From: Candidatus Ishikawaella capsulata Mpkobe
GTDB taxonomy: Bacteria; Pseudomonadota; Gammaproteobacteria; Enterobacterales; Enterobacteriaceae
DNA length: 64,000 bases
Direction: 5' to 3'
Assembly (NCBI RefSeq): GCF_000828515.1
Contig: NZ_AP010872.1
Coordinates: 345,001-409,000 of the forward strand
The notes below the pieces were generated by a model. That model saw only the letters and a list, made by a program, of their open reading frames with translations. It had not been told where the DNA came from and made no database searches. Both the position numbers and the translations under genes were made by a program. Below are positions 20,174-64,000 of the stretch, piece by piece; within the stretch, counting starts at the first letter, position 1; every line of letters begins with the position of its first letter.

Positions 20174-20203
20174 TACAAATTAAAATATTTTTGGTAGTAC
20201 ATA

Positions 20204-20390
20204 AGGTGCTCTTCATATACATAGTGGAACTGTCATTAAAAACACATATCATAAATGACATAATAGTTAGTTAATAAATTGTGGTACATTGGTGTAATCT
20301 TTATAGAAGAAGTTAAAATACATAAATGATTTTTTTTTCAGCTCATAGTGTATTTTATCCATTAGTAAAAAAATGGAACTTACTATAAAA
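20204..20390 (+). pseudogene. ispH: Possible ispH remnant (HMBPP reductase)
   Basis: Short collinear matches to IspH in shifting frames. VIKNTYH aligns with VVHNRYV of the family. GVIFIEE (near 20293) aligns with GAIFIEQ. FFSAHSVF (near 20333) aligns with the iron-sulfur enzyme motif IFSAHGVS. Stops and frameshifts interrupt all of them, and nothing is recognisable after 20390. The site downstream of lspA is where E. coli has ispH. The pieces are short, so the call is moderate. Confidence 0.55.
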
Positions 20391-20474
20391 TAGCATATAT
20401 TATATTTGACCTTCCCAAATAACTGCGTTATTAATTAATGTAAACAAAGTTATAAAAATACTTCATATGGTTTT

Positions 20475-27314: not shown

Positions 27315-28163
27315 TTAATGTCCTATTGATATAGGAAAGATATTTTTCTTCACAAGACTATATTGATTAGATATCGAATTAGCTAACTTGATATATTGTT
27401 CTCCTGATATATTTTCTGCTCGTGACAGAGGGCAAATACCAAACAATTCTAAAACTTCTGCTGTAAATATATTCTTCAAACTATTGCGTAAAATTTTCCT
27501 CCTTTTTTTAAAAGCTTCATTTACAATAAAATTTAACATACACATATCTATGGCGGGATAAGGTATTATTTGATGAGGTATTAAACGTACCATTACTGAA
27601 TCTACATTAGGTGATGGAAAAAAAGAACCTGAAGATATTGTAAACAAAGGAATTATTTGACAATAGTATTGTGCCATGATAGTTAATTTACCATAAGATT
27701 TTTCTCCAGGTTTTGCTACTAATCGATCGGCTACTTCTTTTTGAAGCATAAAATGCATATCTTTAATGAAAGTAATGTAATTAAAGAGATAAAATATTAT
27801 TTTTGTGGAAATATTATAAGGTAAATTACCAAATATTCTCATTTTTTTATTTTTTTGTATCAATTTACTGAAATTAACATTCATAACATCTTTTTCAAGA
27901 ATAATTATTTTTTTATTTATATGGTTATTGTCACTTAACCGTCTTACTAAATCGCGATCAATTTCTATTATCGTTAAGTTATCTAAATACTTAATTATTG
28001 GTTCCGTTAAAGCTCCTAATCCCGGACCAATTTCTATGATATAATCATTGGATTGCGGATTAATAGCAGATATTATTCTATTAATAATGTTTACATTTAT
28101 TAAAAAATGTTGTCCAAAACGCTTTCGTATATGGTGGTTTTTATAGAATTGTTTATGCATCAT
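27315..28163 (-). CDS. rsmA: 16S rRNA adenine dimethyltransferase
   Basis: Dimethylates two adjacent adenines in the 3' hairpin of 16S rRNA, also called KsgA. It has 282 residues. The family start [14 protein letters not shown] is followed by the SAM motif [12 protein letters not shown] (residues about 44-55) and the catalytic NLPYNIST (about 118-125). The first codons overlap the pdxA 3' end by 11 bases, so it is likely translated by coupling. The order pdxA-rsmA-apaH is as in E. coli. Confidence 0.96.
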
Positions 28164-29148
28164 TTTTTTTACTTATATGAATTGCCAAATTAATAGCTTT
28201 CATAAGACTGTAGGAATCAGCTATATTCTGACCAGCTAATTGAATAGCTGTACCATGATCAACAGATGTACGGATAAATGGAAGACCTAATGTAATATTA
28301 ACAGCTTTACCAAACCCTTGAAATTTTAATACTGGTAATCCTTGATCATGATACATAGCTAGTATAGCATCAGCACTTCTTAGATATTCCGGTTGAAAAA
28401 TCGAATCTGCTGATAGTGGTCCAGTTAAGTAAATGCCTTCTTTACGTAACTTTTTTAAAGTGGGTATAATAGTAACAATTTCTTCTTGACCTATATATCC
28501 ATTTTCTCCTGCATGAGGATTTAATCCACATACATAAATATGTGGCTTATCTAAAGAAAATTTTTTTTGTAACTCACTGTGTAAAATAGTTATTATTTCA
28601 TATAGGCTATTACAAGTAATTGCAGAGTAAACTTCTTTTAATGGTAAGTGATTAGTGGCAAGTGCTACTCGCATATTATCTGTTACAAACATCATGACAG
28701 CTCTTTTACAATTCGTTACATTAGCAAAAAATTCTGTATGACCTGTAAAATCAATACCTGCAGCATTAATAATGCCTTTATGTACAGGACCTGTAATAAG
28801 CGCTTGAAACTCTCCTGTCATACATTTCTCACAAGCCATTGATAAAGTATTTATTACATATTGACTATTAGCAATAGACAGATGACCTGCTTTTACTGGA
28901 TGAAGCGTATCTATAGGAAAAACGGTCAAAGTGCCACGTTGGTGTTTCTGCGGAGATTTGCTTGGATCATATTGACGAAGTATCAATGGTAATCCCATTT
29001 GTTTAGCTCTATTTTTTAACAATTCCATACAGCTAAAAACTACTATTTCGACCGGCCAATAATGTTGTGCTATCTGAATCACTAGATCTGGTCCAATTCC
29101 TGCTGGTTCACCAGGTGTAATTGCTAACCGGAAATTACTATTTAACAT
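28153..29148 (-). CDS. pdxA: 4-Hydroxythreonine-4-phosphate dehydrogenase
   Basis: Oxidises 4-phosphohydroxythreonine; PdxJ then joins the product with DXP to make pyridoxine phosphate. It has 331 residues. It starts with [19 protein letters not shown]. The metal-binding histidines lie in [14 protein letters not shown] and [11 protein letters not shown]. The other precursor, DXP, is made by Dxs, also in this window. It overlaps rsmA by 11 bases. A surA remnant sits upstream where surA precedes pdxA in E. coli. Confidence 0.96.
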
Positions 29149-34026: not shown

Positions 34027-35241
34027 CTATATATAATGATAAGGCACTTTTTTCGTGAAAAGATTAAAAAAACTCAAAAAAATGTCCTTTAAATGTTTGA
34101 AAACTCCCCCAGACCGTATATTTTCTAATGATATTATTGGAAATTCTTGCACTGTTTGTTCATTTAACTGAATAATCATGATTCCTACTATTTTATTTTT
34201 GTGTAGTGGAGCTTTAAATTTAGGATAAAAAAATTTAATTTTTTCTTTTATAAACTGTCTTTGACCTTTAGGAATAACTATATTGGCATCTTTTTTTACC
34301 CCAAGTAAAACTTCTTTTTTATTACCAAAAAAAATGGTATGAGATATAAAAGGATGATATCCTTTAATTAATTGAATATTTTCAAAATATTTAAATCCCC
34401 AATGAAGCAACTTCTCTGTTTCTGTAAAACGAATGTCACTATTAGATGATCCAAGTAGTACGGAAATTAACCTCATGTTGTCTTTTGTTGCAGAAGCCAC
34501 TAAATTATAACCAGACTCTGATGTATGTCCTGTTTTAATACCATCTACATTTAAATTGTTCTTCCAAAGAAGACGGTTGCGATTGTATTGAGTAATATGA
34601 TTAAAAACAAATTGTTTTTCTTTATGTAAAAGATATTCTTCAGGTAGATCTCTTATTAAAGATTGTCCAATAAGCGCGATTTCTTTAGCAGTAGTATATT
34701 GATTTATTGCATCTAATCCATGAACAGTCATAAAGTGAGTACTTGTTAATCCTAGTACTTTTGTGTAATTATTCATTTTTTTTATAAAATCAATTTGACT
34801 ACCAGCAATATAATCAGCAAGAGCAATACAAGCATCATTTCCTGACTGAATAATAATACCTTTGTTTAAATCTGAAACGGTAATTCGATCAAGAGGTTTA
34901 ATAAACATTAGCGAAGAATTTTTTAGTTTTGAGTAATTTGTAGCGCAAGCATCTTTTGGTATATTAACTATAGCATGAAGATTAATTTTGCCATTTTTAA
35001 GTGCTTGACCAATTACATAGCTAGTCATCATTTTAGTTAAACTTGCGGGATTTAAACGAAGGTCCGGATGATATTTTGTTAATATTTTTCCAGTGTTGTA
35101 ATCTATTAATATCCATGCTTTGGAGGTAAAAGTAGGAGCAGTAATACCCAAATCAGCAAAACTAGAAGTAGGAATAAAGAAAGATAGTGCAATATAAAAT
35201 ATGAATCGCCATCTTAAATATGAAGAGTCTATTTTTATCAT
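34027..35241 (-). CDS. dacC: D-alanyl-D-alanine carboxypeptidase (PBP6-type)
   Basis: Periplasmic penicillin-binding enzyme that trims the terminal D-Ala of peptidoglycan stem peptides. From ATG 35241 it has 404 residues (E. coli DacC 400) with a signal peptide ending near SSFA-D. Motifs are the catalytic SLTK, SGNDA and KTG. The C-terminus has a short amphipathic tail that would anchor it to the membrane. A longer open frame runs to 35385 without homology. The neighbourhood (moeAB, rimK) favours dacC over dacA. It shows that some cell wall is still made. Confidence 0.93.
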   Translation of the reverse strand: MIKIDSSYLRWRFIFYIALSFFIPTSSFADLGITAPTFTSKAWILIDYNTGKILTKYHPDLRLNPASLTKMMTSYVIGQALKNGKINLHAIVNIPKDACATNYSKLKNSSLMFIKPLDRITVSDLNKGIIIQSGNDACIALADYIAGSQIDFIKKMNNYTKVLGLTSTHFMTVHGLDAINQYTTAKEIALIGQSLIRDLPEEYLLHKEKQFVFNHITQYNRNRLLWKNNLNVDGIKTGHTSESGYNLVASATKDNMRLISVLLGSSNSDIRFTETEKLLHWGFKYFENIQLIKGYHPFISHTIFFGNKKEVLLGVKKDANIVIPKGQRQFIKEKIKFFYPKFKAPLHKNKIVGIMIIQLNEQTVQEFPIISLENIRSGGVFKHLKDIFLSFFNLFTKKVPYHYI

Positions 35242-35464
35242 AGCAAAAAAAAAACTTATCCTTACTAGAATTATTTGAATAGGATTCAAAAATATAAAGT
35301 GTATATAGTGAGTGCTATAGATAAAGTTCATTTTTATACGAGTATACTTAGTGCTATTGTAGCATATAAATTTAAAATTATTCATATATTTAAAGATACT
35401 TGATATATTCGATAATATTATATAGATTCAATAAATCTACTATAGAGAGATAAAATTAAAAAGT

Positions 35465-53945: not shown

Positions 53946-54827
53946 ATGAGACTCAATAAATGCAATAAGTATTTTGAACCATTATTATTCACAATAAGTA
54001 TTGTATTATTAAGTAACTGTAACTGTAATATTGCTTTATTAAATCCCAAAGGGGAGATAGCAATTCAACAACGCTCACTAATACTACTGGCTTTTGGTCT
54101 TATGCTAATTGTAGTTATTCCAGCAATCATAATGGCTATTTTATTCGCTTGTAAATATCGTGATTCTAATACTTCCGACATCCAATATAATCCTAATTGG
54201 TCACATTCTAATAAATTAGAAGCTGTAATTTGGGGTATACCTGTTTTAATTATTTGTTTTCTCGCAATAGTAACATGGAAATCTACTCATACACTAGATC
54301 CTGGCAAATCATTAGATTCTAATAAAAAATCTTTACAAATAGAAGTCATAGCACTTGATTGGAAATGGCTTTTTATTTATCCAGAACAAAAAATTATAAC
54401 TATAAACGAAATTGCTTTTCCGGTAAATATGCCAGTCACTTTTAAAGTAACATCTAATTCTGTAGTAAATTCTTTTTTTATTCCTGAGCTCGGAAGTCAA
54501 ATATATGCAATGGCCGGTATGAAAAATAATCTTAATCTCATAGCTAATAAAGCAGGTATTTATAAAGGTATATCCTCTAATTTTAGTGGACCAGGATTTT
54601 CAGGGATGAAATTCAAAGTAATTGTAACTAAGGATAACACAGAATTCAATAATTGGATTATAAAAGTAAAATCTTCTCCTAAAAAACTAAATACTCAAGA
54701 AGAATACAATAAAATTGCTATTCCTAGTCAAAATAATCCTGTGGAATATTTTTCTACGGAAAATACTACTTTATTCTTACAAGTTATCAAACAGTTCCAA
54801 ATGAGTAAAAATAGAGATAAACCATAA
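53946..54827 (+). CDS. cyoA: Cytochrome bo3 oxidase subunit II
   Basis: Subunit II of the ubiquinol oxidase, a lipoprotein with a periplasmic cupredoxin-like domain (no CuA site in quinol oxidases). It has 293 residues (E. coli 315). The signal peptide ends in the lipobox LLSNC near residue 25; two membrane segments follow (about 44-68 and 90-108). The block [16 protein letters not shown] and [16 protein letters not shown] are conserved. It is the first gene of cyoABCDE and a substrate for LspA. Confidence 0.96.
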
Positions 54828-54851
54828 ATAAAAGTAAAACTGTTTTGCCAA

Positions 54852-54870
54852 CTTTTCTTTTAAAGAAAAG
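54852..54870 (+). other. Hairpin between cyoA and cyoB
   Basis: CTTTTCTTT and AAAGAAAAG form a near-continuous stem 24 bases after the cyoA stop (8 pairs with a 3-base loop). It could mark mRNA processing or protect the cyoA segment. Confidence 0.35.
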
Positions 54871-54898
54871 AACAATATGATTTTTTAAAGAGAATAAA

Positions 54899-56884
54899 AT
54901 GATGTTTGGAAAATTAACTCTAGATGCAGTACCATATCATGAACCTATTATTATGATAACCATTGCTTGTGTAATGTTCATTATACTAGCGTTGATTATT
55001 ACCATCACTTATTTGAAAAAATGGAATTATCTTATATCAGAATGGTTTACTTCAGTAGATCATAAAAAAATAGGCATTATGTATATAATAGTAGCATTTA
55101 TTATGCTATTGCGTGGTTTTATAGATGCTATCATGATGCGAGCTCAACAAGTATTAGCTTCTAGCGGTAAAGCAGGATTTTTATCTGCTCATCATTATGA
55201 CCAAATATTTACGGCTCATGGTGTAATTATGATTTTTTTTGTAGCCATGCCTTTTGTAATAGGTTTAATGAATTTCATTATTCCATTACAAATAGGAGCT
55301 CGTGATGTAGCGTTTCCTTTCATGAATAACCTAAGTTTTTGGTTAACAATTGCAGGTGTAGTTTTAATTAACCTATCTTTAGGAATAGGTGAGTTTGCAC
55401 AAACCGGTTGGTTAGCTTATCCACCTTTATCAGAATTAGCTTATAGCCCAGGTGTAGGAGTAGATTATTGGATTTGGGCTCTGCAACTTTCTGGTATAGG
55501 CACAACATTAACGGGTATTAATTTTTTTGTTACTATTTTGAAAATGAGAGCTCCTGGTATGAATCTTTTTAAAATGCCCGTTTTTACTTGGACAGCTCTT
55601 TGTACTAATATTTTGATTATTGCTGCATTTCCAGTTTTAACTACTACATTAGCTATGTTAACTTTGGATCGTTATCTTCATTTCCATTTTTTTACTAATG
55701 AAATGGGTGGCAATATTATGATGTATGTAAACTTAATTTGGATTTGGGGACATCCTGAAGTTTATATTTTAGTATTGCCAGTTTTTGGGATATTTTCGGA
55801 GATTACTGCAACCTTTTCTAAAAAGCGTTTATTTGGATATACTGCATTGGTATGGGCGACGGTCATTATTAGTATCCTGGCTTTTGGAGTATGGTTACAT
55901 CATTTCTTTACTATGGGTGCAGGAGCTAATGTTAATGCATTTTTTGGTATCATGACCATGATAATTGCTATCCCGACTGGAGTAAAAATTTTCAATTGGA
56001 TTTTCACTATGTATCAAGGAAGAATTCAAATGCACTCTGCTATGCTTTGGACAATTGGATTTTTATTAACTTTTTCCATAGGTGGTATGGCCGGTGTTCT
56101 TTTAGCAATTCCAGGAGCTGATTTTGTTTTACATAACAGTTTATTTTTGGTAGCACATTTCCATAATGTTATTATTGGGGGGGTCGTCTTTGGATGTATG
56201 GCTGGAATTACTTATTGGTTCCCCAAAGCATTCGGATTTACTCTAAATGAAACTTGGGCTAAACGAGCTTTTTGGTTTTGGATTATAGGATTTTTCATTG
56301 CTTTTATGCCATTATATGTATTAGGTTTCATGGGTATGACTCGTCGCTTAAGTCAAGATATTGATCCAGAATTTCATTCTCTATTAGTTATAGCAACAGC
56401 AGGTGTTGTATTGATATCCTTAGGTATCATTAGTCAAATGATCATGTTCTGGATATCTATCCGTGATAGAAAAAAAAATCGCGATTTAACTGGTGATCCT
56501 TGGGGAGGACGTACATTAGAATGGGCTACATCTTCTCCACCTCCTTGTTATAATTTTGCTGTAATCCCTTATATCTATGAAAGAGATGCTTTTTGGGATA
56601 TTAAAGAGAAAGGTATATTTTATAAAAACGCACTACAATATGAAACTATTCATATGCCCAAGAATAGTATCGCAGGCATATTAATATCTACTTTTGCTAC
56701 TATATTTGGATTTTCAATGATTTGGCATATTTGGTGGATGTCAATTTGTTCTTTTTTAAGTGGGATATTTACTTGGATTATAAAAAGTTTTGATGATGAC
56801 TTAGATTATTATATTCCTATAGAAGAAATTCAAAATGTTGAAAATCAGCATCTTAGTAATATTAACAAATTAGGTTTGAAATAA
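54899..56884 (+). CDS. cyoB: Cytochrome bo3 oxidase subunit I
   Basis: Catalytic subunit with haem b, haem o3 and CuB; reduces oxygen and pumps protons. It has 661 residues (E. coli 663), about 15 membrane helices. Haem and copper ligands are visible in [33 protein letters not shown] and [11 protein letters not shown]. Its stop overlaps the cyoC start by one base. The enzyme needs haem O, made by CyoE with farnesyl diphosphate, although the ispA gene here is broken. Confidence 0.98.
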
Positions 56885-57495
56885 TGTTGACTAAAACTGT
56901 TATTAACCAAAAGGATAAGATTAGTCAATCTAATCATATTTTAAAATCCAATACAATTTTTGGTTTCTGGATTTATATGATGAGCGATTGTATTATTTTT
57001 GCAACTTTATTTGCAACATATGCAGTGATGGTAAACAATACTGCTGATGGACCTATAGGAAAAGATTTTTTTAAAATACCATTTGTCCTAATAGAAACAG
57101 TATTTTTGTTAATTAGTTCTTTAACATATGGTATGGCTGTTATCTCCATGTCCTCTAAAAGCAAAGATAATGTTAATCGATGGTTATTCTTAACTTTTTT
57201 ATTAGGTCTGAGTTTTGTACTAATGGAAATATATGAATTTAACCATTTAATTACAAAAAATATTTCTCCACGGAATAGCGGTTTCTTATCTTGCTTTTTT
57301 ACTCTAGTAGGTACACATGGTCTACATGTTATTTGTGGTTTAATTTGGATAATGGTATTAATATTTCAAATTACACAAAAAGGTTTAACTACTACAAACT
57401 GTACTCGTATTATGTGTCTTAGTTTATTTTGGCATTTTCTAGATATAGTATGGATTTGTCTATATACCATTGTTTATTTGATGGGGGTAATTTAA
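56884..57495 (+). CDS. cyoC: Cytochrome bo3 oxidase subunit III
   Basis: Membrane subunit III, needed for assembly of the oxidase. It has 203 residues (E. coli 204) and five membrane helices. [21 protein letters not shown] (one segment) and [16 protein letters not shown] are conserved. It overlaps cyoB and cyoD by one base each (TAATG junctions), so the block is translationally coupled. Confidence 0.96.
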
Positions 57496-57818
57496 TGGGT
57501 ATTGAAACTCATACAAATGAACATAATAATGTTAAATCTTATTTAATAGGTTTTATTTTTTCTCTGATCCTTACAGGTATTCCATACGGGATAGTAATGA
57601 GTAATAAATTATCTAAAACTACTATGACATCAGTAGTTTTAACTTGTGCACTACTACAAGTAGTCGTTCATTTAATTTATTTCTTACATCTAGATACAAA
57701 ATCGGAAAATGGATGGAATATCCTAGCTATAGTTTTTTCATTAATAGTTATTCTGATTATTGTCTTGGGTTCTTTGTGGATAATGGGACATCTTAACCAT
57801 AATATGATGGTTTCCTAG
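57495..57818 (+). CDS. cyoD: Cytochrome bo3 oxidase subunit IV
   Basis: Small three-helix subunit that supports CuB incorporation. From ATG 57495 it has 107 residues (E. coli 109); the frame is open upstream inside cyoC without homology. LLQVVVHLIYFLHLDTKSENGW spans one conserved helix end, and GSLWIMGHLNHNMM ends the protein. The start overlaps the cyoC stop by one base. Confidence 0.95.
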   Translation: MGIETHTNEHNNVKSYLIGFIFSLILTGIPYGIVMSNKLSKTTMTSVVLTCALLQVVVHLIYFLHLDTKSENGWNILAIVFSLIVILIIVLGSLWIMGHLNHNMMVS

Positions 57819-57833
57819 GAATAATTTTTCTCA

Positions 57834-58688
57834 ATGATAAAAGAATACTTACAATTAACAAAACCAAGAATTATTTTAGGAAATTTAGTTTCAGTAACTG
57901 GTGGATTTTTATTAGCTTCCAAAGGACATGTTAATTATTCACGGCTTTTTATTACATTAATTAGTATGGCATTAATTATCGCATCTAGTTGTGTATTTAA
58001 TAACATTATTGATTGCGATATAGATAAAAAAATGTATAGAACTAGAAATAGAGTTTTAGTAAAAGAGAAAATTTCTCTGAAAACCAGTATGTTATATGGA
58101 TTTATATTAGGTATAATGGGCTTTTGGCTAATATATTCTAAAATTAATTTACTAACTATTTGGTTAACATTAATAGGATTTTTGATATACGTTTTTATTT
58201 ATAGTCTTTATATGAAACGTCATTCAATATATGGAACTTTAGTAGGCAGTTTAGCTGGAGCCGTACCTCCCGTTACAGGTTATTGTGCTGTAACTAACCA
58301 CTTTGATGTAGCTTCATTAATTCTGCTCATTATTTTTACTACCTGGCAAATACCGCATGCATATGCTATTGCTATATATCGCTTTAAAGACTATCAACGA
58401 ATAAATATTCCAATATTACCTTTAATAAAAGGTATTAAAGTAGCAAAAAATCATATAATTGTATATATCCTATTATTTATTATAGCAAATTTACTCCTCA
58501 CTATCACCGGTTTTACTGGTTACAAATATTTACTTGTAACTTGTATAATAAGTTTCATTTGGCTAATAATGTCTTATACAGGTTATAAAACTAAAAATAA
58601 TTCTTTATGGGCTCGCAGAATTTTTTTATTTTCTATAATCAACATTACTGTTGTCAGTATTATGATGTCTATAGATCACCACAATTAG
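57834..58688 (+). CDS. cyoE: Haem O synthase (protohaem farnesyltransferase)
   Basis: UbiA-type membrane prenyltransferase that adds a farnesyl group to haem b to make haem O for CyoB. It has 284 residues (E. coli 296) and about nine helices. The first Asp-rich motif is [18 protein letters not shown] (residues about 54-71); the second polar loop includes [15 protein letters not shown]. It starts 15 bases after cyoD. Its prenyl donor, farnesyl diphosphate, would normally be made by IspA, which is broken 2 kb downstream. Confidence 0.96.
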
Positions 58689-58788: not shown

Positions 58789-60168
58789 ATGAATGATAAT
58801 AAAATGACTATTAGTGAATTATCTGCCTCTTGGAGCTTAGGTACAGTTATTTCTTTACGTATGCTGGGTATGTTTATGGTTTTACCTGTATTGACTACTG
58901 AAGGTATGAAATTATCTGGTGCAAATGAATCATTAATTGGTCTAGCTATTGGAATATATGGATTAACACAGGCTGTTTTTCAAATACCACTTGGATTATT
59001 ATCTGATCGTCTGGGACGTAAGCCAATTATTATTGGTGGCTTATTAATTTTTATCATTGGTAGTACAATTGCAGCTACTACTAGTTCGATTTGGGGTCTT
59101 ATTATAGGCCGAGCAGTTCAAGGTGCAGGCGCAATTAGTGCAGCGGTAATGGCACTTCTGTCTGATTTAATTCGTGAACAAAATCGAACTAAAGCAATGG
59201 CATGTATTGGTATAAGTATTGGTATAACTTTTACTATCGCGATGGTAGCAGGACCAATCATCACTCATCATTTAAATTTTAATGCATTATTTTGGTTAAT
59301 TTCTATGCTAGCTATATTAGCTATTGTTATAACCTTACTAGCAGTGCCATCAGTAAAATACTACACTTTCAATCGTGAAACTAGCGTAGTGAAAAGCAGC
59401 ATAAGATTAGTACTAAGTAATATTAATTTAATTAAGCTTGATGCAAGTATTTTTATACTTCATGCATTACTAATGCTAAATTTTATAACATTACCGAAAC
59501 AACTAGTGCAATCTGGATTACCTCTTGATAAACATTGGGAAATATATTTATCCACCATGCTAATTTCTTTTTTGAGTATTATGCCATTAATTTTTTTAGC
59601 AGAAGAAAAACATTGTATAAAATGGCTATTTATCTTCGGAATCATCACACTAATTATTGCAGAAATTATATTTTTAAGTGCTGACAATCATCTTTGGATA
59701 CTAGTAAGTGGTAGTCAAATTTTTTTCTTGGCATTTAATTTAATTGAAGCAATATTACCATCTCTGATCAGTAAAGAATCACCTTTAGGATATAAAGGGA
59801 CAGCAATGGGTATTTATTCAACTAGCCAATTTCTGGGTATAGCAATTGGAGGCAGTTTAGGAGGTATATTATTAGGATATCTAGGTTATAAAATGGTTTT
59901 CATATGTGGAATAATACTATCTATTATTTGGCTGATGTTTATTATTACTATTCGAGAACCCCCTTATGTTAGCAGTTTACGTTTTATTATAAAAAATATT
60001 GATTTATTTAGTAATAAATTAGATAAATACTTGATAGAGCAAAAAGGTGTGTTATCAACATTGATTATACCAGAAGAAGAATGCGTTTATATAAAAATAG
60101 ATACTAAATTAACCAATAGAACAGAAATAGAAAAGAGAATTACTTCTCTAACATATAAATGTGGTTGA
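58789..60168 (+). CDS. yajR: MFS transporter, YajR type
   Basis: Major facilitator superfamily membrane protein; substrate unknown. It has 459 residues (E. coli YajR 454). Motif A after helix 2 is GLLSDRLGRKPIIIGG; about 12 helices follow. The C-terminal part (about 395-459) is a hydrophilic ferredoxin-like domain (YVYIK-type ECVYIKIDTKLTNRTEIEK) typical of YajR. It directly follows the cyo operon, as in E. coli. One of the few transporters in view, so it may mediate exchange with the host, though that is a guess. Confidence 0.9.
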   Translation: MNDNKMTISELSASWSLGTVISLRMLGMFMVLPVLTTEGMKLSGANESLIGLAIGIYGLTQAVFQIPLGLLSDRLGRKPIIIGGLLIFIIGSTIAATTSSIWGLIIGRAVQGAGAISAAVMALLSDLIREQNRTKAMACIGISIGITFTIAMVAGPIITHHLNFNALFWLISMLAILAIVITLLAVPSVKYYTFNRETSVVKSSIRLVLSNINLIKLDASIFILHALLMLNFITLPKQLVQSGLPLDKHWEIYLSTMLISFLSIMPLIFLAEEKHCIKWLFIFGIITLIIAEIIFLSADNHLWILVSGSQIFFLAFNLIEAILPSLISKESPLGYKGTAMGIYSTSQFLGIAIGGSLGGILLGYLGYKMVFICGIILSIIWLMFIITIREPPYVSSLRFIIKNIDLFSNKLDKYLIEQKGVLSTLIIPEEECVYIKIDTKLTNRTEIEKRITSLTYKCG

Positions 60169-60441: not shown

Positions 60442-61280
60442 ATGGATTTTGCTGAATTGTTAAATATGTATCAAAGCAGAGTTAATAACACCTTAACATC
60501 TTTATTAGGTTCTTTACATATGTATTGTACTCCTTTAGTGCATTATCCGGTGGTAAAAGATTACGTCCTTTCCTAGTATATGCAATTGGTGATATGTTAC
60601 AGGTTAACCCAGTTAGTTTTGAGTGTATACATACTTATTCTCTTATCCATGATGATTTACCATCAATGGATAATGATATTTTACGTAGAAACAAACCTAC
60701 TTGTCATATTAAGTTTGGACAATATGTTGCTATATTAGCGCCTTTAATATTTTAGCTACAAAAAGTCTTCCTGGTATAACTAATGAGTATAGGATCAAAA
60801 TAATTTCTGAATTAGCTCAAGCAGGTGGAGTACAGGGTATATGTAGTGGGCAATTATGGGATTTATTAGCGAACAAAAATAATATCAATATCACAAAATT
60901 AAAAAAATTTTTATCTTCATAAAACAGGAGCTTTAATTCGTGCTTCACTTAGAATAGGAGTGTTAGCATCTGGCAAAAATCATTATAAAATATTACCAAC
61001 TATTGATAATTATGCTAACGCTATTGGTCTAGCATTTCAATTACAAGATGATATTTTAGATGTAGTAGACAAAACTTCTTTCCTTGATAAAAGACCAGGA
61101 AAAAATCAAAAATTATGTAATATAACTTATCCTGCTTTAATAGGCCTGAAAAATACTCAGCGCAATCTTTTAAATCTGTATCAAGAAGCATTAGATGCTT
61201 TATCAATATTAGAGTCTAAATATTTTAATACTGGTTCTTTGAAAGAAGTAGCAAGTTTTATAATTAAACGTAATATATGA
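60442..61280 (+). pseudogene. ispA: ispA, disrupted (farnesyl diphosphate synthase)
   Basis: The whole length of IspA is traceable but needs at least three frame changes. Frame one starts [16 protein letters not shown] (60442) and fails near 60515. Frame two reads [18 protein letters not shown] and [10 protein letters not shown] up to a stop at 60753-60755. Frame three reads [21 protein letters not shown] and ICSGQLWDLL. Frame four (from about 60917) reads HKTGALIRASLRIG, QLQDDILDVV and ends at 61280. A deletion at the second break removes the conserved GDALQ segment. Both Asp-rich motifs persist, so decay is recent. It lies directly before dxs as in E. coli. Confidence 0.92.
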
Positions 61281-61304: not shown

Positions 61305-63182
61305 ATGAGTACTAATATTTCTCAATATCCTACATTAGATTTAGTAAATACAGTACAAGCATTACGTTTATTATCAAAAAATAAACTACCCCTGATTTGT
61401 AATGAGCTGAGAAACTATCTTCTGAATAGTGTTAGTGGTTCTAGTGGGCATCTTGCTTCTGGTCTAGGAGTAGTGGAATTAACTGTTGCACTTCATTATG
61501 TCTATAATACACCTTTTGATAATCTTATTTGGGATGTAGGACATCAAGCTTATCCACATAAAATTCTCACTGGAAGACGAGAAATGATCAATACCATTCG
61601 CCAGAAAAATGGATTACATCCTTTCCCGTTTAGAGAAGAGAGTGAATTTGATGTATTGAGTGTAGGACATTCTTCTACTTCGATCAGTGCAGGTTTAGGT
61701 ATGGCCGTAACTGCAAAATACGAACAAAAGAATCGTCGCACTGCTTGTATTATTGGTGATGGAGCAATGACAGCAGGAATGACATTTGAGGCTATGAATC
61801 ATACGGGAGATTTACAAGCAGATATACTAGTAATACTCAATGATAATGATATGTCTATATCAAAAAACGTTGGTGCATTAAATAGTTATTTAGCACGTAT
61901 TATTTCAAAAAATAAACGTATAAAACTGTTGGATAATCATTGCATAGTAAGAAGTTGTCTAAAAAAAGAATTAACCGCAGAAACAGAAATAGATTTTAAC
62001 GGTATCTTCTTTAAAGAATTAGGGTTTAATTATATTGGACCTATAGATGGTCATAATGTTATGGTATTAATTAAGGTTTTAAAAAATATACGTAATCTAA
62101 AAGGTCCTCAATTACTACATATAATTACCAAGAAAGGTAAAGGTTATACTCCAGCAGAAAAAGATCCAATCAAATGGCATGCCGTACCTGCTTTTAACTT
62201 ACATACAGGTACTTTACCTAACGATAATAGTAAAATTACCAGCTATTCTATTATTTTTGGCAATTGGCTTTGTGAAATGGCTAAAAATGATCCAAAACTA
62301 ATTGCTATTACACCAGCTATGCGAGAAGGTTCTGGAATGCACAATTTTTCAAAAAATTATCCTAAACAATATTTTGATGTAGCAATTGCTGAACAACATG
62401 CTGTTACTTTTGCTGCGGGTATAGCAATTGGTGGTTATAAACCAATAGTAGCAATTTATTCTACTTTTTTGCAACGTGCTTATGATCAACTTATTCATGA
62501 TGTAGCACTACAAAAATTGCCAGTATTATTTGCTATTGATCGAGGAGGTATTGTAGGAGAGGATGGTGCCACACATCAGGGAGCCTTTGATATTGCATTC
62601 TTACGTTGCATACCTGGAATGATGATTATGACTCCTAGTGATGAAAACGAGTGTCGTCATATGCTTTTCACAGGTTATAATTATCATAACGGTCCTAGTG
62701 CTGTACGTTATCCTAGGGGAAATATTACGGGAACAAGATTAGAACCATTAAAGAAACTACCTATTGGCAAAGGAATAATAAAGCGCAATGGAAAAAAAAT
62801 AGCAATCCTTAACTTTGGAACATTACTTTACGAAGCCATGACTGTTGCGGAAATACTAAATGCTACTTTAATTGATATGCGTTTTGTAAAACCACTAGAT
62901 GAATCACTAATAATTTCGTTAGTTACCAATAAAAATGTATTAGTTACCATAGAAGAAGGATCTGTTTCTGGAGGAGCAGGAAGTAGTGTTAATGAGTTAT
63001 TAGCTAAATCTAAGAAGATAGTACCAGTTCTCAATTTAGGATTACCAGATCAATTCATTCCTCATGGTAACCAACGAGAGATCCATATAGAATATCAACT
63101 AGATGCCACAGGTATTCATCAACAAATTATGAAGTGGATGAATAAAAAGGTTTTTATCATTAATAAAATCCCAGGAGCCTGA
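61305..63182 (+). CDS. dxs: 1-Deoxy-D-xylulose-5-phosphate synthase
   Basis: Thiamine diphosphate enzyme condensing pyruvate and glyceraldehyde 3-phosphate to DXP, precursor of isoprenoids, vitamin B6 and thiamine. It has 625 residues (E. coli 620). The TPP site is GDGAMTAGM with [25 protein letters not shown] and the transketolase-type [19 protein letters not shown] are conserved. ATG 61305 is used; ATG 61301 runs out of frame at once. Its 3' 240 bases are duplicated at 63574-63770. With ispH and ispA damaged, its main value may be DXP for PLP (see pdxA). Confidence 0.97.
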
Positions 63183-63221
63183 TCATATCATAGGGACAGG
63201 GCTAGAAGAAATAGTAATCTA

Positions 63222-63563
63222 TTTATGATGCTTAATTGATGAATTTTACCATCACCAATATTAATTCATTTGGGTTTTGCATGTTTAAGAATATCCTTAC
63301 AAAGTAAGACATGCAATAAACCTTCTTCTAATTTTACTCCTGTTACCGGGAAGAGAAAATATTAAATCAAAATCGCCCCGATTAATACCACGATATAACC
63401 ATCCATCTTCATTGCTCTGATTTTGATGTTCTTTTTTACCATTAATATTAAGTTGACCCCATACAGTTTCAATGCCTAATTCCTTTTCTTTCCAATTTGG
63501 AACACTAATTGTTAAAGTATAATTTTGTTCATCAATACGACGGATATCATACTCTGGAGTTCC
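63222..63563 (-). pseudogene. ibpA: ibpA copy 1, truncated and frameshifted
   Basis: Small heat-shock protein remnant on the minus strand. The frame from 63563 reads GTPEYDIRRIDEQNYTLTIS, VWGQLNINGKK, WLYRGINRGDFDLIFSLPG (alpha-crystallin core), then a one-base shift near 63345 and GVKLEEGLLHVLLCKDI and HAKPK followed by TGA, where copy 2 has AGA. The N-terminal third is missing because the duplication joins dxs sequence at about 63570. Decayed duplicate. Confidence 0.88.
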
Positions 63564-63573
63564 TACTATAAGT

Positions 63574-63770
63574 TAGTTACCATCGAAGAAAGAGACGTTT
63601 CTGGAGCAACAGGAAGTAGTGTTAATGAGTTATAGTACCACTTCTCAATTTAGGATTACCAGATCAATTCATTCCTCATGGTAACCAACGAGAGGTCCGT
63701 ATATAATATCAACTAAATGCCACAGGTATTCTTTTTATAAATTACCATATGAAATGGATGAATAATATAA
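63574..63770 (+). pseudogene. dxs 3' fragment (duplicate)
   Basis: About 200 bases nearly identical to the end of dxs (62941-63165), with a deletion of roughly 18 bases near 63633 and stop codons in the original frame. It lacks promoter, start and 85 per cent of the gene, so it cannot be functional. Confidence 0.9.
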
Positions 63771-63874
63771 TGTTTATTAACTGCTAAAAAACATTTTATG
63801 CATGCTAAAATATTAGTAACCTTATCAAAATAAAAGTAGAAGACTACATGATGGTGATAATTTTAATTATCAAT

Positions 63875-64000
63875 TTATTTACGATGCTCAATAACTGATG
63901 AATTTTTACCATCACCAATATTAATTCTTTTGGGTTTTGCATGTTCAGGAATCTCCTGACAAAGTAAGACATGCAATAAACCTTCCTCTAATTTTGCTCC
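63875..64000 (-). CDS. ibpA: Small heat-shock protein IbpA/IbpB, C-terminal end
   Basis: Last 41 codons of an alpha-crystallin-type small chaperone; the start is beyond the window. It reads GAKLEEGLLHVLLCQEIPEH then AKPKRINIGDG and ends at TAA 63875-63877. The family C-terminus is of the NGLLYIDL..PEAKKPRRIEI type, including the IxI-like motif (INI). No stop or shift is present, unlike copy 1, so this is probably the functional copy. In the family it holds aggregated proteins for DnaK and ClpB. Confidence 0.85.
   Translation of the reverse strand, partial: GAKLEEGLLHVLLCQEIPEHAKPKRINIGDGKNSSVIEHRK

Follow-up and report, generated by a model that had tools for sequence, protein, structure and literature searches.

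Reliance on external isoprenoids is an established feature of Rickettsia and, to some extent, of other symbionts of insects. In Rickettsia, import of IPP, DMAPP and FPP has been argued from the pattern of genes, the upstream isoprenoid genes and IspA being absent while UppS is kept (Driscoll 2017, PMC5615194), and in R. parkeri the dependence is backed by metabolite measurements using mass spectrometry and by statin inhibition (Ahyong 2019, PMC6854040). Blochmannia has lost ispADFGH, ispA included, repeatedly and in parallel, and the retention of dxs in Blochmannia obliquus has been tied to other pathways (PMC4389277). The Buchnera of Sipha maydis needs external FPP for haem O (PMC12013274). 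The stinkbug Megacopta punctatissima harbours Ca. Ishikawaella capsulata as an extracellular symbiont of its gut, with one plasmid in the symbiont (PMC7218078). A literature search, which did not extend to the original genome paper (10.1093/gbe/evr064), yielded no paper on the isoprenoids of Ishikawaella.

Genomic context of ispA

The window analysed is the whole stretch of 64,000 nucleotides of the Ishikawaella genome. Within it, ispA is present as a pseudogene in the following arrangement:

53946..57818, + strand: cyoABCD, cytochrome bo3 oxidase subunits; open frames with a match for cyoD, in the E. coli order
57834..58688, + strand: cyoE, haem O synthase and consumer of FPP; intact, above the cut-off of the NCBIfam heme o synthase model
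58789..60168, + strand: yajR, MFS transporter; intact, 59% identity to E. coli YajR
60442..61280, + strand: farnesyl diphosphate synthase gene ispA, a pseudogene carrying two deletions and three frame changes
61305..63182, + strand: dxs; intact, most of the sampled conserved residues retained

An earlier note on this DNA, made from the letters and their open reading frames, described dxs and cyoE as intact beside a broken ispA. Both are indeed full-length, as is yajR.

An intact ispA lies directly upstream of dxs in at least 57 of the 80 gammaproteobacterial dxs loci examined. The order cyoE-yajR-ispA-dxs is identical in a member of the same family with a genome of 0.56 Mb (G018, locus L117), where ispA is intact with its GDALQ segment and dxr and ispH are also retained. 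Ca. Pantoea edessiphila, a reduced Pantoea, has the same cyoE-yajR-dxs order with ispA gone from the gap; unlike in Ishikawaella, no ispA remnant is detectable at this dxs locus (L009).

Downstream of dxs (63183-64000 and L115:1-1352) there is a tandem duplication of approximately 660-670 bases, the copies being 93-96% identical, which repeats the tail of dxs together with a portion of an ibpA-like gene for a small heat-shock protein. The copy closest to dxs is cut short, and the ibpA-like frame that is intact lies at L115:876-1352.

Decay of ispA

The ispA region was compared with the intact IspA of Lelliottia (L005) and Hafnia (L004) by a frame-aware alignment spanning 60442-61274. The following lesions were located:

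between approximately 60517 and 60549, + strand: frame change 1, its exact place depending on the reference
approximately 60605-60625, + strand: deletion of about 7 residues, before a motif of 12 residues
60735..60745, + strand: deletion of about 8 residues (the GDALQ segment), with a frame change at 60738-60740
approximately 60908-60920, + strand: frame change 3, inside an A/T run

The three frame changes and the loss of GDALQ that had been read from the letters alone were thus confirmed, and the alignment made visible the first of the two deletions listed, which was absent from that reading. The readable parts of ispA retain approximately 50% residue identity (139 of 276 residues versus Lelliottia), the two longest fragments each match PF00348 separately, and both Asp-rich motifs are still legible in separate frames, one of ten residues and the other QDDILD. 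There is no single open frame across the domain, the joined PF00348 match containing six in-frame stops, and the GDALQ segment expected of a functional FPP synthase is missing. Among 57 intact IspA homologues, the exact GDALQ is present in 37 and GDAL in 41. The state of ispA is one of decay and not of chance. Given several independent lesions, deletions among them, sequencing error is very unlikely to be their source.

It might be supposed that slippage or recoding at A/T runs, which has been reported for some symbiont genes, still allows ispA to give rise to a functional enzyme, its frame changes falling in A/T-rich stretches and roughly half of its residues being those of free-living IspA. 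This is scarcely credible, since all three frame changes would need correcting, slippage could not bring back the two deleted segments (GDALQ among them), and IPP and DMAPP, the substrates, are themselves not produced.

Loss of the isoprenoid supply pathway

The genome comprises 754,729 bases in two contigs, a chromosome of 745,590 bases and a second contig of 9,139 bases, and was scored as 99.95% complete. Throughout the genome, plasmid included, PF00348 gave no match except the broken ispA; IspB is therefore absent. The earlier note had allowed that FPP might come from another prenyl synthase, namely IspB, and that an additional intact FPP synthase would overturn its own reading; the first proposal is refuted by this search, and no enzyme of the second kind was found genome-wide.

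The wider possibility is that some other synthase, whether IspB, of the CrtE type or of the UppS family, makes FPP and renders the loss of ispA harmless. In E. coli, loss of ispA is tolerated because some FPP is formed by other synthases, and Benitsuchiphilus, a related stinkbug symbiont, has a plasmid-borne crtE. In Ishikawaella, however, the 9.1-kb plasmid carries arginine-degradation, replication and other genes with no prenyl synthase, a PF01255 search of the genome retrieved UppS only, and dxr and ispH are missing regardless. Together with the lack of a second PF00348 match, these results refute an alternative synthase of any recognised family and make the idea as a whole very improbable.

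The intact dxs had been taken to mean that the pathway was otherwise whole, which is not the case. Dxr and IspH had no match in the genome, though the same method found both in 10 of 14 control genomes, with matches in E. coli among the controls; the IspH family PF02401 likewise had no match in Ishikawaella. Between frr and uppS, where dxr would stand by synteny, a Dxr remnant of 33 residues survives. The corresponding site for ispH lies in the window:

20174..20474, + strand: site of fkpB-ispH in E. coli (lspA to dapB), with a weak ispH remnant at approximately 20194-20314

The statistics of both remnants are modest and the case for them is partly positional, from their syntenic sites: the Dxr remnant scores 61, none of five shuffles exceeding 30, or 52 with a simpler gap model, a score reached by 1 of 200 shuffles, and the ispH remnant, which is weaker, scores 40, again reached by 1 of 200 shuffles. 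No remnant of fkpB or xseB scored above shuffles.

A genome search for ispB, uppS and all of the MEP genes had been proposed in the earlier note. With the C5 stage judged on dxr and ispH, ispB proved absent and uppS intact, and dxs was intact with dxr and ispH absent. Both stages of supply are lost, the C5 stage (dxr, ispH) and chain elongation (ispA broken, no ispB); with dxr and ispH gone, not only FPP but also the C5 units are lacking.

UbiA also had no match in the genome, CyoE itself being the only UbiA-family match, so that the usual route to ubiquinone is unavailable despite the open bo3 oxidase genes. For the bo3 quinol oxidase encoded at 53946-57818, with neither UbiA nor IspB, quinone must come externally or via some other route.

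Isoprenoid-consuming genes and the retention of dxs

Four isoprenoid-consuming genes, uppS, mraY, miaA and cyoE, are intact, and the expectation that users of FPP persist despite the broken ispA holds for uppS and cyoE. MraY, MiaA and CyoE have open frames and exceed the curated cut-offs. UppS retains the sampled catalytic residues with the exception of position 39. The presence of proline there (R39P) was considered as a sign of decay and rejected, since relatives whose pathways are intact also vary at this position. Over the 3,648 bases of the four genes there are no lesions versus approximately 22 expected at the lesion density of ispA, a figure that assumes that the consumers and ispA were released from selection simultaneously.

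Beside uppS, cdsA (CDP-diglyceride synthase; L114:6005-6762, G000:C1 about 246004-246761, - strand) is broken. Compared with E. coli CdsA it has three stops, two frame changes and one deletion, and only a 102-residue C-terminal frame is left. The condition of this copy suggests that phospholipid precursors are external too.

Three further genes bear on peptidoglycan and on the fate of the Dxs product:

34027..35385, - strand: D-Ala-D-Ala carboxypeptidase (DacC in the earlier note); open, Peptidase_S11 match, below the cut-offs of the curated subtype models
28153..29148, - strand: pdxA, vitamin B6 pathway; intact
G000:C1:517828-518523: pdxJ; intact

PdxJ and PdxA are enzymes of the DXP-dependent route to vitamin B6, DXP being the product of Dxs. 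As both are intact, DXP would be useful even without isoprenoid synthesis, and dxs is most likely kept for vitamin B6 via PdxJ and PdxA.

Comparison of reduced genomes

The comparison took in nine genomes no larger than about 1.1 Mb, Ishikawaella included, with CyoE identified by its match to E. coli CyoE and by a neighbouring cyoD. FPP synthase is absent with UppS, MraY, MiaA and CyoE present in three of the eight others (G005, G006 and G021). IspH is absent too from G006 and G021. In G005 (L110, L122) IspH is present and Dxr is encoded next to UppS, but prenyl synthases are entirely lacking; this genome may produce C5 units with nothing joining them into FPP. G010 has no FPP synthase, IspH, UppS or MraY and retains MiaA and CyoE. 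Two synthases each were found in G007 and G013 and one each in G015 and G018, with IspH in all four. In this small set of reduced genomes, the retention of UppS tracks peptidoglycan synthesis, as represented by MraY, rather than the capacity to produce FPP. A second UbiA-family match in G007 (G007:C1:355626-356330) has three internal stops and is probably a decaying ubiA.

These data bear on the proposal that uppS and cyoE are useless leftovers, with finished polyprenyl phosphate, haem A or O and quinones imported or dispensed with. With UbiA and IspB lost and the bo3 oxidase retained, quinone at least is probably taken up ready-made, and with cdsA broken the uptake of finished membrane lipid is conceivable. 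Against this, uppS, mraY, miaA and cyoE are free of lesions, two other genomes that make neither C5 units nor FPP have retained the same genes, and MiaA requires free DMAPP. The proposal is accordingly considered unlikely.

Probable supply from the insect

Isoprenoid units are not made, yet the enzymes that consume them are kept, from which we infer uptake from the insect. A requirement for external IPP, DMAPP and FPP, or close equivalents, supplied by the insect or its diet, is the explanation that we hold to be probable. The lesion-free consumers, the pairing of UppS with MraY across the nine genomes and the parallel with Rickettsia all point in this direction.

The mevalonate pathway of the insect would be the most likely origin of IPP, DMAPP and FPP or their equivalents. 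Imported FPP and IPP would be used by UppS to form the peptidoglycan carrier, haem B would be farnesylated by CyoE to provide haem for the bo3 oxidase, and DMAPP would be used on tRNA by MiaA, while Dxs would persist through the need of DXP for pyridoxal phosphate. Once uptake had arisen, the upstream genes would have decayed, leaving dxr and ispH nearly erased and ispA still legible. The location of the symbiont outside host cells counts against such a scheme, as the diphosphates, being charged, would need a way into the lumen of the crypts. On balance we lean towards the view that C5 and C15 prenyl diphosphates are fed by the insect across the crypt lumen via a putative export and uptake route.

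The earlier note named the host, IspB and a co-symbiont as possible sources; with IspB refuted, supply by the host is the one that stands. In plataspids this one symbiont dominates the midgut crypts, and a co-resident bacterium is a highly improbable source of isoprenoids in place of the insect. Such an arrangement gained no support from the genome but has a possible precedent in one aphid, where a co-symbiont may be the source of FPP for Buchnera (PMC12013274).

Comparison with known systems

Supply from the insect would place Ishikawaella beside Rickettsia, in which genes of C5 synthesis (here dxr and ispH) are likewise missing, there is no FPP synthase, and UppS and MraY are kept. Rickettsia differs in being intracellular in the host cytosol and in keeping IspB and mostly Idi, whereas Ishikawaella is extracellular in the gut, without IspB and with Dxs, the latter probably for vitamin B6. 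Ishikawaella thus resembles Rickettsia in logic but differs from it in the set of genes. Blochmannia is similarly a reduced enterobacterial insect symbiont that has lost terpenoid backbone genes, although it is intracellular in ants and the pattern is mixed among strains. The Buchnera of Sipha maydis also depends on the insect or a partner for the FPP of haem O, but is intracellular, with two symbionts present. The extracellular setting is the sole unusual point of the present case, through which an extracellular insect symbiont would join the bacteria that depend on outside isoprenoids.
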